Positions 8,663 to 20,842 of a DNA stretch of 64,000 nucleotides are shown here, in pieces. The position numbers and the translations under genes are program-made. Each line of letters begins with the position of its first letter. Position 1 is the first letter of the stretch. Origin of the DNA: Neoroseomonas oryzicola (GTDB lineage Bacteria > Pseudomonadota > Alphaproteobacteria > Acetobacterales > Acetobacteraceae); NCBI RefSeq assembly GCF_012163135.1, contig NZ_JAAVUP010000004.1, positions 434,001 to 498,000 on the forward strand. Reading direction: 5' to 3'. A model generated the notes under the pieces. That model saw only the letters and a list, made by a program, of their open reading frames with translations, made no database searches and had not been told where the DNA came from.

Positions 8663-9702
8663 GGGAGCGCCTCCGGCACCTGGCGCAGCAGGGTGATGGA
8701 CACGCGCCGGTTCGCCGCGGCGTTGGGCTGGTCCGGCAGCAGCGGGTCGCGGTCGGCGCGCCCGCTCACGCTGCGGATTCGCGCCTCGGGCAGCCCGGCC
8801 TCGGTCAGCAGGCGCCGGGTGACGTTGGCGCGCTCGGCCGAGAGATCCCAGTTGCTGCGGTCCCCGCCGCCGCGGAACGGCGTCGCGTCGGTATGCCCGG
8901 CGATGTCGACCTGGTTGGGCAGCCGCGCCGTCGCCTGCGCCACGCGGGCGAGCAGCGCGCGCGCCCGCTCGTTCGGCGCCGCGCCGCCGAGGGCGAACAT
9001 CGGCTGGCGTTCCGCGTCGAGCAGCTGGATGCGCAGCCCTTCCGGCGTCTGCTCGACGCGCAATTGCCGCGCGAGGTCGGCGAGCGCCGGATCGGCCGCG
9101 ACGGCCTGGCGGATCTGCTCGGCCGCGCGGTCGAAGGCCTCGCGCTCGCGCCGGGCCAGTTCGCGGCGCAGTTCCGCCTCGCCCAGCGCCTCGGGCGCCG
9201 CCTCGGACGTCTCGGCGGGGCCGCCCCGCGGCGGCTGCGTCCCGTCCTGCGCGCCGGGCGGGCTGGTGGTGACCGTGCGCGGCCGCTCGGCATCCTCCGC
9301 GCCCTCGGGGCCTTCGCGCCGTGGCATCGGTCGGGCAGGGGTCTCGCTCTCGTCTTCCTCGATGTCCATCACGATGGGCAGGCGCCCCTGCTGGATGGTC
9401 ATGGCCCCGGTGGTCGATGTCTGGTTGCCGTCGTCGTTCGGCGTCTGCCCGCCGAAGGGCTGGCCCGATCCCGAAACCGACCGCGCCAGCAGGTTGGTCG
9501 GCGCGAAATAGTCCGCCAGGCCGCGGCGCTGTTCCTCGGTGGTCGCGTTCAGCAGCCACATCAGCAGGAAGAAGGCCATCATCGCCGTGACGAAGTCGGC
9601 ATAGGCGACCTTCCAGGCCCCGCCATGGTGCCCGTGCTCGCCGCCTTCCTCGCGCCGGATGACGATGGTCGCGCGACCGTCGCCTTTTGCCTTGCCCGCC
9701 AT
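8659..9702 (-). CDS. motB: Flagellar motor stator protein MotB
   Basis: The 347-residue protein starts at ATG 9702. It has a basic N-terminus and one membrane helix (residues about 33-52, YADFVTAMMAFFLLMWLL) with the ion-binding aspartate at 36. A Pro/Glu/Arg-rich linker leads to an OmpA-like peptidoglycan-binding domain (VDIAGHTDATPFRGG, then NRRVSITLLRQ at the end). The extended upstream frame to 9846 has no homology and was rejected. The gene order motB-motA is the reverse of the enterobacterial order. Upstream lies a striking nested palindrome (9739-9780). Confidence 0.95.
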   Translation of the reverse strand: MAGKAKGDGRATIVIRREEGGEHGHHGGAWKVAYADFVTAMMAFFLLMWLLNATTEEQRRGLADYFAPTNLLARSVSGSGQPFGGQTPNDDGNQTSTTGAMTIQQGRLPIVMDIEEDESETPARPMPRREGPEGAEDAERPRTVTTSPPGAQDGTQPPRGGPAETSEAAPEALGEAELRRELARREREAFDRAAEQIRQAVAADPALADLARQLRVEQTPEGLRIQLLDAERQPMFALGGAAPNERARALLARVAQATARLPNQVDIAGHTDATPFRGGGDRSNWDLSAERANVTRRLLTEAGLPEARIRSVSGRADRDPLLPDQPNAAANRRVSITLLRQVPEALP

Positions 9703-9738
9703 CGGGTCCCTGCATGGCGCAGGCCTGCTGACTATTTC

Positions 9739-9780
9739 GCTAACCGCGCCGCGTGACACGGCGCGGGGCCTGTGGTTAGC
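9739..9780. promoter_or_regulatory. Nested palindrome between motB and the amidohydrolase gene
   Basis: Two inverted repeats overlap in the 88-base divergent gap. The outer pair is GCTAACC (9739-9745) with GGTTAGC (9774-9780). The inner pair is CCGCGCCG (9744-9751) with CGGCGCGG (9759-9766), loop CGTGACA. No T-tract adjoins it, so an operator or RNA-leader role is more likely than a terminator. Confidence 0.5.
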
Positions 9781-9790
9781 GTCGGTCGCG

Positions 9791-10669
9791 ATGGATCTTC
9801 CCGCCCCGAGCCTTCCCGGACAGGACGCCACGGCGCCGCTGGTCATCCGCCGGCCGGCGCGGCAGACCGTGCCGCTGGTCTTTGCCTCCGCCCATTCGGG
9901 CCAGGACTACCCGGCGGAGCTGGTGGCCGAGGCGCGGCTCGCGCCCCTCGCGCTGCGGCGGAGCGAGGATTCCTTCGTCGACGAGCTCTTCGCCGCCGCC
10001 CCCGCCCATGGCGCGCCGCTGATCGCGGCGACCTTCCCGCGCGTCTGGTGCGACGTGAACCGGGAGCCCTGGGAACTCGACCCCGCGATGTTCGAGGGCC
10101 CGCTGCCGCCCTGGGTGAACACGACCAGCCCGCGCGTCGGCGCCGGCCTCGGCACCATCGCGCGCATCGTCGCGACCGGGGAGACGGTCTACCGCCGCCG
10201 CCTGACCTTCGCCGAGGCCGAGGCCCGCATCCGCGGCTGCTGGGAGCCCTACCACGCCTCCCTGGCCGAGCTGATCGCCCAGACGCGCGCCCGCTTCGGC
10301 TTCTGCCTGCTGATCGACTGCCATTCCATGCCGGCCCACCCAGCCCAGGCGGCCAACCCGCCGGACATGGTGCTGGGCGACGCCCACGGCACGGCCTGCG
10401 CGCCCCGCGCCACGCGCCTGGTCGAGGACCTGCTCGTTTCGCGCGGCTATCGCGTGCGGCGGAACGATCCCTATGCGGGGGGCTACGTGACCCGCCACTA
10501 CGGCCGGCCGCGCGACGGCGTGCATGCGCTGCAGATCGAGATCGCCCGCGGCCTCTACATGAACGAGGTGCGGATCGAGCGCAGCCCCGGCTTCGCGGGC
10601 TTCGTCGCCGAAATGACCGACCTCGTTGCGCGGCTCTGCGCCGCGGACTGGACCTTCCTCCGCGCCTGA
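9791..10669 (+). CDS. N-formylglutamate amidohydrolase family protein
   Basis: The 292-residue protein carries the family landmarks: FASAHSGQDYPAEL near residue 36, RVWCDVNREPWELDP near 84, LLIDCHSMP near 174 and YAGGYVTRHYGRP followed by HALQIEIARGLYMNE near 230. Members are zinc-dependent and release formate and glutamate from N-formylglutamate in histidine degradation, or act on related N-acylated amino acids. No other hut genes are nearby. ATG 9791 starts the conserved region; the upstream frame to 9659 runs into motB. Substrate not certain. Confidence 0.85.
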   Translation: MDLPAPSLPGQDATAPLVIRRPARQTVPLVFASAHSGQDYPAELVAEARLAPLALRRSEDSFVDELFAAAPAHGAPLIAATFPRVWCDVNREPWELDPAMFEGPLPPWVNTTSPRVGAGLGTIARIVATGETVYRRRLTFAEAEARIRGCWEPYHASLAELIAQTRARFGFCLLIDCHSMPAHPAQAANPPDMVLGDAHGTACAPRATRLVEDLLVSRGYRVRRNDPYAGGYVTRHYGRPRDGVHALQIEIARGLYMNEVRIERSPGFAGFVAEMTDLVARLCAADWTFLRA

Positions 10670-10696
10670 TCCCCGCCGCCCGCTGCGGGGCGACGG

Positions 10697-10785
10697 AAAA
10701 AAGAAAGGCGGTGCCCGAAGGCACCGCCAAGTTTAGGGAGGAAACGTCCAAGAAAGACAGCGGGAGGCAATGCCTTGCCGCTGCG
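10697..10785 (-). ncRNA. Candidate small RNA with two CCUCCC motifs and UUCG terminator
   Basis: Read on the minus strand, about 89 nt form a complete small-RNA layout. The 5' hairpin (10783-10758) has arms CAGCGG/CCGCTG and an inner AGG/CCT stem. A mostly unpaired stretch (10757-10729) follows. The terminator is GGCGGTGCC-TTCG-GGCACCGCC (10728-10707) with TTTCTTTTTT (10706-10697) directly after. CCTCCC, complementary to ribosome-binding sites, occurs at 10767-10762 and 10741-10736. A possible promoter lies at 10820-10792. No minus-strand protein gene reads into this terminator. Anti-Shine-Dalgarno small RNAs are known in alphaproteobacteria; membership in a known family is not shown. Confidence 0.65.
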
Positions 10786-10791
10786 GGGGTT

Positions 10792-10820
10792 TAGATAGGC
10801 CTGCTTCGATGAGGCCGCAA
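10792..10820 (-). promoter_or_regulatory. Possible promoter of the small RNA
   Basis: On the minus strand, TTGCGG (10820-10815) and TATCTA (10797-10792) are separated by exactly 17 bases. Each matches the sigma-70 consensus at only three positions. Transcription would start near 10785, exactly where the first hairpin begins. Confidence 0.4.
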
Positions 10821-10826
10821 GGGATT

Positions 10827-10844
10827 TTTTGCAGCGCAGCAAAA
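10827..10844. promoter_or_regulatory. TGC/GCA palindrome upstream of the small RNA
   Basis: TTTTGC (10827-10832), spacer AGCGCA, GCAAAA (10839-10844) form an 18-base near-perfect palindrome just upstream of the proposed -35 box. Alphaproteobacterial PhaR binds TGC-rich palindromes, but this site does not match a published consensus exactly. The regulator is unknown. Confidence 0.4.
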
Positions 10845-10929
10845 CGGACGCGCCGCAATATGCGGATGCATATTTGTTGCGTGGCCCGGCGGCTGGACGT
10901 TCGGCACGCTGCTTGCGCCGCGCCCCGGC

Positions 10930-11718
10930 ATGCCGCGACGTGCCGCCATCCTGATTCGCCTCCTGGTCCCGCTGCTCTGGACGATGCCGGCGCTGGCCGA
11001 TCCGGCGCATCTCTGCCGCGCCGCGATCGCCGTCGCCGAACGGGAAGCCGGCATTCCCGCCGGATTGCTGCAGGCGATCGGCCGCGTGGAATCCGGCCGC
11101 CGCGACCCCGACAGCGGCCGTTTCGCCCCCTGGCCCTGGACCATCAACGCCGAGGGCCGCGGCATGTTCTTCCCGACGCGGGAGGCAGCGATTGCCGAGG
11201 TCCGGCAACTCCAGGCCGGCGGCGTGCGGTCGATCGACATCGGCTGCATGCAGGTGAACCTGCGCCACCACCCCGACGCCTTCGCAACGCTCGACCAGGC
11301 CTTCGATCCGCTGGCCAATGCCCGATATGCCGCGCGCTTCCTGACGGAACTGCAGGCCGCCCGCCAGGATTGGGGCCGTGCCGCGGCGCATTACCATTCC
11401 CAGACGCCCGACCGCGCCGAGGCCTATCGCGCCCGCGTCGCCGCCACCTGGGCCGAGGAACTGCGCCAGCCGGGCGGCGATCCGGCCGCCGAAGCCGCGG
11501 CACTCGCGGCCTTCGCGGGGCGGGCGCCGGCCGTTGCCTCGCTGGCGAACGGCGCCGACCGGGCGCGGGTGATCCCCTCGGCCGGGGGCGGGCAGGGGCG
11601 GGCGCTCGATGCCTACCGTGCCGCGCCGATCATGATGGTCGGGCGCGCGCCGGTCACCGCGGCGGCGCCACGCACGACGCCGCACATGCCGCTCGCCTTC
11701 TTCCGGCGCCCGCCGTGA
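10930..11718 (+). CDS. Lytic transglycosylase (SLT-domain) protein
   Basis: The 262-residue protein has a signal peptide (about residues 1-24, cut near ALA-D). An SLT lysozyme-like domain follows: AIAVAEREAGIPAGLLQAIG, then RVESGRRDP with the catalytic glutamate, a long insert with WPWTINAEGRGMFF, and DIGCMQVNLRHHPDAF. It would cleave peptidoglycan in the periplasm. The C-terminal about 100 residues are Ala/Gly/Pro-rich and not recognised. The gene is convergent with the CaiB gene, with only 6 bases between the stops. Such enzymes often serve flagellar or secretion assembly, but no such genes adjoin. Confidence 0.85.
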   Translation: MPRRAAILIRLLVPLLWTMPALADPAHLCRAAIAVAEREAGIPAGLLQAIGRVESGRRDPDSGRFAPWPWTINAEGRGMFFPTREAAIAEVRQLQAGGVRSIDIGCMQVNLRHHPDAFATLDQAFDPLANARYAARFLTELQAARQDWGRAAAHYHSQTPDRAEAYRARVAATWAEELRQPGGDPAAEAAALAAFAGRAPAVASLANGADRARVIPSAGGGQGRALDAYRAAPIMMVGRAPVTAAAPRTTPHMPLAFFRRPP

Positions 11719-20767: not shown

Positions 20768-20842
20768 TGGTGGGCGCGACAGGGATTGAACCTGTGACCC
20801 TTCGCGTGTGAAGCGAATGCTCTCCCGCTGAGCTACGCGCCC
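20768..20842 (-). tRNA. tRNA-Val (CAC anticodon), CCA encoded
   Basis: On the minus strand the acceptor stem GGGCGCG (20842-20836) pairs with CGCGCCC (20778-20772), with discriminator A at 20771 and a genomic CCA at 20770-20768. The D arm reads GCTCAGCGGGAGAGC. The anticodon stem TTCGC/GCGAA encloses loop TTCACAC with anticodon CAC at 20810-20808. The T arm contains GGTTCAATCC. It reads the GUG valine codon. A strong promoter lies just upstream. Confidence 0.95.

Follow-up and report, generated by a model that had tools for sequence, protein, structure and literature searches.

Intergenic DNA at 10697-10785 of the window (the whole 64,000-nucleotide stretch of Neoroseomonas oryzicola DNA that was analysed, with a GC content of 71.5%) had been flagged in an earlier note as an undescribed small-RNA candidate with two anti-Shine-Dalgarno motifs, and it raises the questions of whether an independent RNA is encoded here, to which family it belongs and what might control it. 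Small RNAs of the anti-Shine-Dalgarno type occur in several lineages of the Alphaproteobacteria, among them the CcsR/cuckoo RNAs of Rhodobacter and NfeR1 (αr14). The RNA of this locus is almost certainly a trans-acting RNA of this mode, and a member of the αr8 family (MmgR/SisA; RF00519).

Organization and fold of the small RNA gene

The gene lies on the minus strand at 10697-10784, is about 88 nt long with a predicted 5' end near 10784, and is supported by a match to the Rfam model RF00519 and by its fold. The folding energy of -38.7 kcal/mol compares with -26.1 kcal/mol (sd 3.2) for shuffled sequences (z -4.0), with none of 200 shuffles equalling it. The minimum free energy structure starts with a 5' hairpin at 10757-10784, most of which lies outside the Rfam model, while the Rfam alignment places the weak hairpin of the family, GUCU-UUCUU-GGAC, at 10746-10758. 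A CCUCCC motif at 10741-10736 falls within an unpaired stretch between the 5' hairpin and the terminator stem. The 3' part is a Rho-independent terminator at 10697-10728, consisting of a 9-bp stem (10728-10707) capped by a UUCG loop and followed on the minus strand by the U-tract UUUCUUUUUU. The hairpin, the single-stranded CCTCCC stretch and the UUCG-capped terminator with its T-tract, all read from the minus strand in the earlier note, are therefore present. A terminator scan of 10600-11000 returned this one site; since shuffled sequences yield a mean of 0.6 sites, such a pattern carries little weight by itself.

The RNA gene is convergent with a plus-strand gene for an N-formylglutamate amidohydrolase (FGase) at 9659-10669 (PF05013, E 5.7e-77; start codon uncertain), which ends at 10669. 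The claim that no minus-strand protein gene lies upstream agrees with our reading of the region, in which none was seen and the next gene on that side is a plus-strand open reading frame at 10930-11718, lytic-transglycosylase-like, with PF01464 just below its cut-off.

The RNA belongs to the αr8 family

The minus strand between 10692 and 10765 matches RF00519 (suhB/MmgR) with 63.8 bits, against a gathering cut-off of 41 (E 7.9e-11), and the match runs end to end over model positions 1-77 of 77. It is one of two matches over curated cut-offs in the Rfam scan of the window, the other being a tRNA; this tRNA gene lies at 20771-20842 on the minus strand. As described in PMC12559287, the αr8 family unites MmgR of Sinorhizobium with SisA-D of Caulobacter and is recognised by its Rho-independent terminator and by a UUUCCUCCCU that follows a weak hairpin and is itself unpaired; most species have one copy adjoining the FGase gene. 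At our locus the 10-mer UUUCCUCCCU, identified as the family motif from the same source, occupies 10735-10744 on the minus strand as a predicted anti-Shine-Dalgarno seed, the terminator stands directly after the αr8 core, where the family definition places it, and the neighbour is the FGase gene. As DNA the 10-mer, TTTCCTCCCT, occurs once in the 64-kb window; the 6-mer CCTCCC is common there (20 on the plus and 26 on the minus strand, 46 in total, at 71.5% GC).

The label 'undescribed' is accordingly wrong, since the RF00519 cut-off is passed over the full length of the model and both the αr8 10-mer and the neighbour gene are present, and the same three features supply the family identity that had been left as not established. 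The supposed new RNA at 10697-10785 can thus be taken off the list and given a name. Published work already covers the family with its motif and neighbour gene, and PhaR control has even been reported for one member; what is new here is a small detail, a conserved PhaR-like site together with a changed 5' stem. Among the papers listed in searches of the open-access literature, none dealt, by title and opening of the abstract, with this RNA in Acetobacteraceae or Roseomonas.

The gene, its seed and its synteny are conserved

The covariance search in related genomes that had been proposed as a check gave RF00519 matches in all 35 genus genomes searched, the window's own included (E <= 0.001), and, under stricter filters at the same E-value, in 119 of the 200 order genomes sampled, covering 36 of 51 genera. 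The remaining 81 order genomes were without a match under these stricter filters; the 20 of them that were listed are 1.7-3.4 Mb in size. In a control set of 14 well-known genomes, matches were found in two, Caulobacter vibrioides (expected) and Thermus composti (unexpected), with one of the two above the cut-off. Many Neoroseomonas-type genomes have a further RF00519 match below the cut-off (about 29-36 bits), and the genome of the window has only two matches. The second of these is another αr8 copy (L002, contig 1:399165-399242, 51.6 bits), which has its own, different upstream sequence, with the flank UUCUUGGAC absent. A minus-strand open reading frame near this copy resembles prolyl-tRNA synthetase, a putative assignment judged by eye.

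Synteny was followed with the FGase protein. A scan of the genome collection left 80 loci from 86 relatives, the nearest being Neoroseomonas marina at 97%, and the small RNA was found at 66 of the 80, 65 by the exact 11-mer TTTCCTCCCTA and one more (L089) by the Rfam model. At each of the 65 the 11-mer follows the 3' end of the FGase gene on the other strand, in 62 of them no more than 250 nt from the FGase match. Of 14 loci without the RNA, two (L057 and L081) end at a contig edge 21-23 nt past the FGase match. In eight loci without the RNA (L076, L077, L078, L080, L085, L087, L090 and L092), the FGase match is preceded at a distance of about 90-190 nt by a tRNA gene on the minus strand; these tRNA-flanked loci possibly represent a different FGase paralogue or neighbourhood.

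The loci used for counts across relatives, promoters, seed accessibility and the alignment were picked by the exact 11-mer, so that invariance of the 11-mer core among them exists by choice. The unbiased figure comes from loci brought in by the Rfam model and not by the motif: all 51 of these, the best-scoring among those listed, carry the αr8 10-mer, which includes the first CCTCCC. The 11-mer occurs in 50 and the 22-mer in 44 of the same 51 loci, the exceptions are L031 and second-copy loci, among them L002, L123 and L127. Sequence next to the core is also kept, the flanking UUCUUGGACG being present in 45 of 45 aligned sequences (the window and 44 loci), in which the flank was not a selection criterion; it is absent from second-copy loci, L002 and L123 among them. 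Together, the Rfam match, the conservation and the synteny strongly support the earlier proposal that a small RNA containing an anti-Shine-Dalgarno stretch is encoded here.

A predicted PhaR operator next to the -35-like element

The predicted promoter comprises a -35-like TTGCGG at 10815-10820 and a -10-like TATCTA at 10792-10797, both on the minus strand. The 17-base spacing given for this pair is correct (10820-10815, 17 nt, 10797-10792), and the proposed start at the first hairpin fits the sequence, in which the first base of the stem, 10784, lies 8 nt past the -10-like element. Relatives show CTTGC at the -35 position, in 44 of 44 orthologous promoters. These come from loci L032-L083, which we call Acetobacteraceae-type, a label of our own since several are metagenome-assembled genomes titled Rhodospirillales, Alphaproteobacteria or otherwise; L065 was dropped from the promoter and accessibility counts because its upstream sequence is too short. 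A strict sigma-70 scan found no promoters and left the TTGCGG/TATCTA pair unscored.

Three bases upstream of the -35-like element, at 10824-10844 on the minus strand, lies a predicted PhaR (AniA) operator, TTTTGCTGCGCTGCAAAAAAT, which fits all 21 positions of the Sinorhizobium meliloti consensus printed in PMC12542648 and is the sole full match in the 64-kb window. In the study reported there, S. meliloti PhaR bound the mmgR promoter in gel-shift experiments. The consensus is matched in full by 20 of the 44 Acetobacteraceae-type promoters and with at most one mismatch by 33, as compared with 0 and 3 of 561 control stretches, respectively, and with 2 of 220 shuffled promoters at up to one mismatch. 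In 20 promoters of more distant loci, 11 of them titled Reyranella, no site with at most one mismatch was found. The stretch 10824-10844 is a near-symmetrical dyad situated between the small-RNA promoter and the divergent lytic-transglycosylase-like gene, and a second YGCRNYGCR core occurs 19 nt farther upstream in several Neoroseomonas orthologues (for example L037, L038, L040, L041, L042 and L074).

The genome also encodes PhaR itself (PF07879 and PF05233) and two Phasin_2 proteins. The phasin gene of contig 1 has two PhaR-like sites near its start, with two mismatches and one mismatch, the second overlapping a possible start codon; no PhaR-like site with up to two mismatches was found at the second phasin locus or at that of phaR. 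From these data and the precedent of S. meliloti, we consider that the promoter is probably controlled by PhaR.

The explanation that competes best with this holds that an αr8-type RNA is subject only to general promoter control and that the PhaR-like dyad is no operator or is bound by something else. In its favour, exact consensus matches number 9 genome-wide against 19 for a reversed control pattern, which makes the consensus alone unspecific; promoters of the Caulobacter siblings are unrelated (PMC12559287); and the second copy in the same genome has a different upstream sequence. Against it stand a match to all 21 consensus bases immediately before the -35-like element, kept in Acetobacteraceae-type loci far above controls, and the presence of a PhaR in the genome, whose S. 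meliloti counterpart binds mmgR (PMC12542648). We regard general promoter control as unlikely, though deserving of real weight.

As a finder of a genome-wide regulon, the PhaR consensus failed against the control pattern (9 versus 19 places). One of its genome-wide matches (L139, 1501-1521) precedes a DUF3141 gene (PF11339, a family of unknown function), whose start is 57 nt away, and another (L144) lies upstream of a sugar transferase gene.

A single CCTCCC motif is predicted to be exposed

The seed 10-mer of the window RNA has unpaired probabilities of 0.66-0.99, and across 65 sequences (the window and 64 loci) its accessibility averages 0.74, the lowest value being 0.30 in one relative. The second CCTCCC reported inside the first hairpin does exist, at 10767-10762 on the minus strand, and is paired within the 5' stem: its unpaired probabilities of 0, 0, 0.06, 1, 0.01 and 0 leave five of six bases paired and one free. 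It is present in 6 of the 65 sequences. The suggestion of two anti-Shine-Dalgarno motifs is thus unsupported as far as function goes, and the second motif is rejected as a second seed for its pairing and its presence in only 6 of 65; it reads as stem sequence happening to contain CCTCCC, and only one CCTCCC is plausible as a seed. Another aligned sequence, L043, also has a second CCTCCC, located inside its terminator, and L118, outside the 65-sequence count, shows one in its 5' stem.

A rival reading is an RNA of the AbcR (αr15) type, in which two functional CU-rich anti-Shine-Dalgarno motifs act on transporter mRNAs. PMC7143759 describes AbcR RNAs as having two unpaired CU-rich motifs, partial suhB similarity, an lsrB neighbour and a length of 114-120 nt, and the window RNA shares with AbcR1/2 the CU-rich motif, here as two CCUCCC, and the partial likeness to suhB. 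It departs from them in genomic setting, in size and in how many motifs are exposed: FGase, which marks αr8, stands next to it in place of lsrB, the RNA is about 88 nt long, and its second CU-rich motif, present in 6 of 65 sequences, is base-paired, where AbcR RNAs have two that are conserved and unpaired. RF00519 is, moreover, the best full-length match, in a scan that keeps only the best match of a clan. We therefore think an AbcR-type RNA very improbable.

That there is no independent RNA at all, the signals belonging to a terminator or leader fragment or to a short open reading frame, is scarcely credible. In its favour, long mechanical minus-strand frames cross the region, as is expected at 71.5% GC. 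Against it, no minus-strand gene lies upstream, some orthologues keep the terminator stem but have a loop that differs by 1-2 bases, a change that would put any reading frame out of register, and family members elsewhere are described as transcribed small RNAs. As coding potential, the region offers mechanical frames only.

The first stem varies around a conserved block

The 5' hairpin reaches past the hairpin of the Rfam family, and the weak family hairpin overlaps its 3' end by two bases. The stem was assessed in an alignment of 21 of the 45 rows (20 distinct sequences), selected after their common stem register was noticed, so that the counts lean toward structure. In this subset 88.6% of the stem cells are paired, compared with 80.8% in shuffles (0 of 500 as high), and 5 of 11 pairs show changes on both sides against 3.1 in shuffles (14 of 500 as high); sliding the partner strand by 1-3 columns lowers the paired cells to 63.2% or less. 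The rows omitted were 15 whose stem sits elsewhere (for the most part Roseomonas metagenome-assembled genomes), two of Caldovatus, three Plastoroseomonas-like and four Pseudoroseomonas-type with a shorter stem. Other lineages have a different stem at this position. All four pairs of the weak family hairpin are possible in the window sequence and, over the 45 aligned sequences as a whole, in 20, with at most two of the four in another 20. The first stem therefore varies, and it is the block around the seed that is kept.

The RNA has in common with MmgR of S. meliloti the full-length covariance match, the 10-mer core, the terminator and, as a predicted feature, a PhaR/AniA-type promoter site; it differs in its long 5' hairpin, which competes with the weak first hairpin of the family, and in the placing of the PhaR-like site upstream of the -35 element. 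With SisA-D of Caulobacter crescentus it shares UUUCCUCCCU after a hairpin, the FGase linkage (as for sisA) and the occurrence of more than one copy per genome.

Candidate targets

In Caulobacter, the 10-mer of SisA pairs with mRNA leaders and represses them together with Hfq, and SisA is itself sponged by the RNA CrfA (PMC12559287). Such Hfq-assisted repression of leaders is the best explanation for the 10-mer here as well, by analogy with Caulobacter. The complement of the 10-mer, AGGGAGGAAA, is found at 8 places in the genome, two of which are the small RNA genes themselves; of the six others, three precede an ATG with an open frame of at least 60 residues. They belong to a cupin gene and an alpha/beta hydrolase gene, both Pfam-supported (L147 and L150), and to a mechanical open reading frame (L152). 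The cupin and hydrolase genes, whose putative ribosome-binding sites match the 10-mer in full, are candidate targets and only leads. Duplex energies of leaders picked by the motif were matched by 0 of 200 and 11 of 200 shuffles, a circular result because the leaders were chosen by the same motif.

Direct targeting of the phasin mRNAs is unsupported, the complementarity to the seed being no better than in shuffles: for the two leaders 78 of 200 and 52 of 200 shuffles were at least as good, and 121 of 200 for an alternative start. The energies of these leaders are -16.4 and -14.9, with a median of -13.7 for the 91 mechanical ORF leaders of the window. A genome-wide search for a CrfA-like sponge or a long target, by 13-mer complement with at most one mismatch, found only the two small RNA genes themselves, and at this setting the genome differs from that of the SisA-D RNAs; a sponge may act through shorter pairing.

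Implications for αr8 RNAs in Acetobacteraceae

Because a predicted PhaR-type operator sits in the small-RNA promoter, a PHB/PhaR switch appears the most likely logic of the system. Transcription would start near 10784 and stop at the UUCG terminator, and the exposed UUUCCUCCCU would pair, probably with the help of Hfq, with purine-rich ribosome-binding sites, so that several mRNAs would be translated less. When polyhydroxybutyrate (PHB) is lacking, PhaR would repress the small RNA together with at least one phasin gene; as PHB accumulates, it would draw PhaR off, and the RNA could then limit granule-related or other carbon-use genes. In this scheme the expression of the RNA, its Hfq dependence, its binding by PhaR and the repression of its targets are expected from the behaviour of relatives, and PHB as the signal for PhaR from S. 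meliloti in particular. Family membership, synteny, the conserved seed and stems and the operator-like site are shown for the locus itself, and PhaR and phasin genes for its genome.

The prediction that follows is that the FGase-linked αr8 RNA of Acetobacteraceae should respond to PHB via PhaR, as MmgR does in Sinorhizobium. A broader proposal, for which we see roughly even chances, is that this RNA is a long-standing member of the PhaR regulon, with PhaR control reaching well beyond the rhizobia, and that an interchangeable 5' stem has replaced the first hairpin of the family. The 22-nt block UUCUUGGACGUUUCCUCCCUAA would then be kept in FGase-linked copies as sequence and not as structure, suggesting a pairing or protein-binding surface longer than the 10-mer, and the second copies, which lack its first half, may have other partners.
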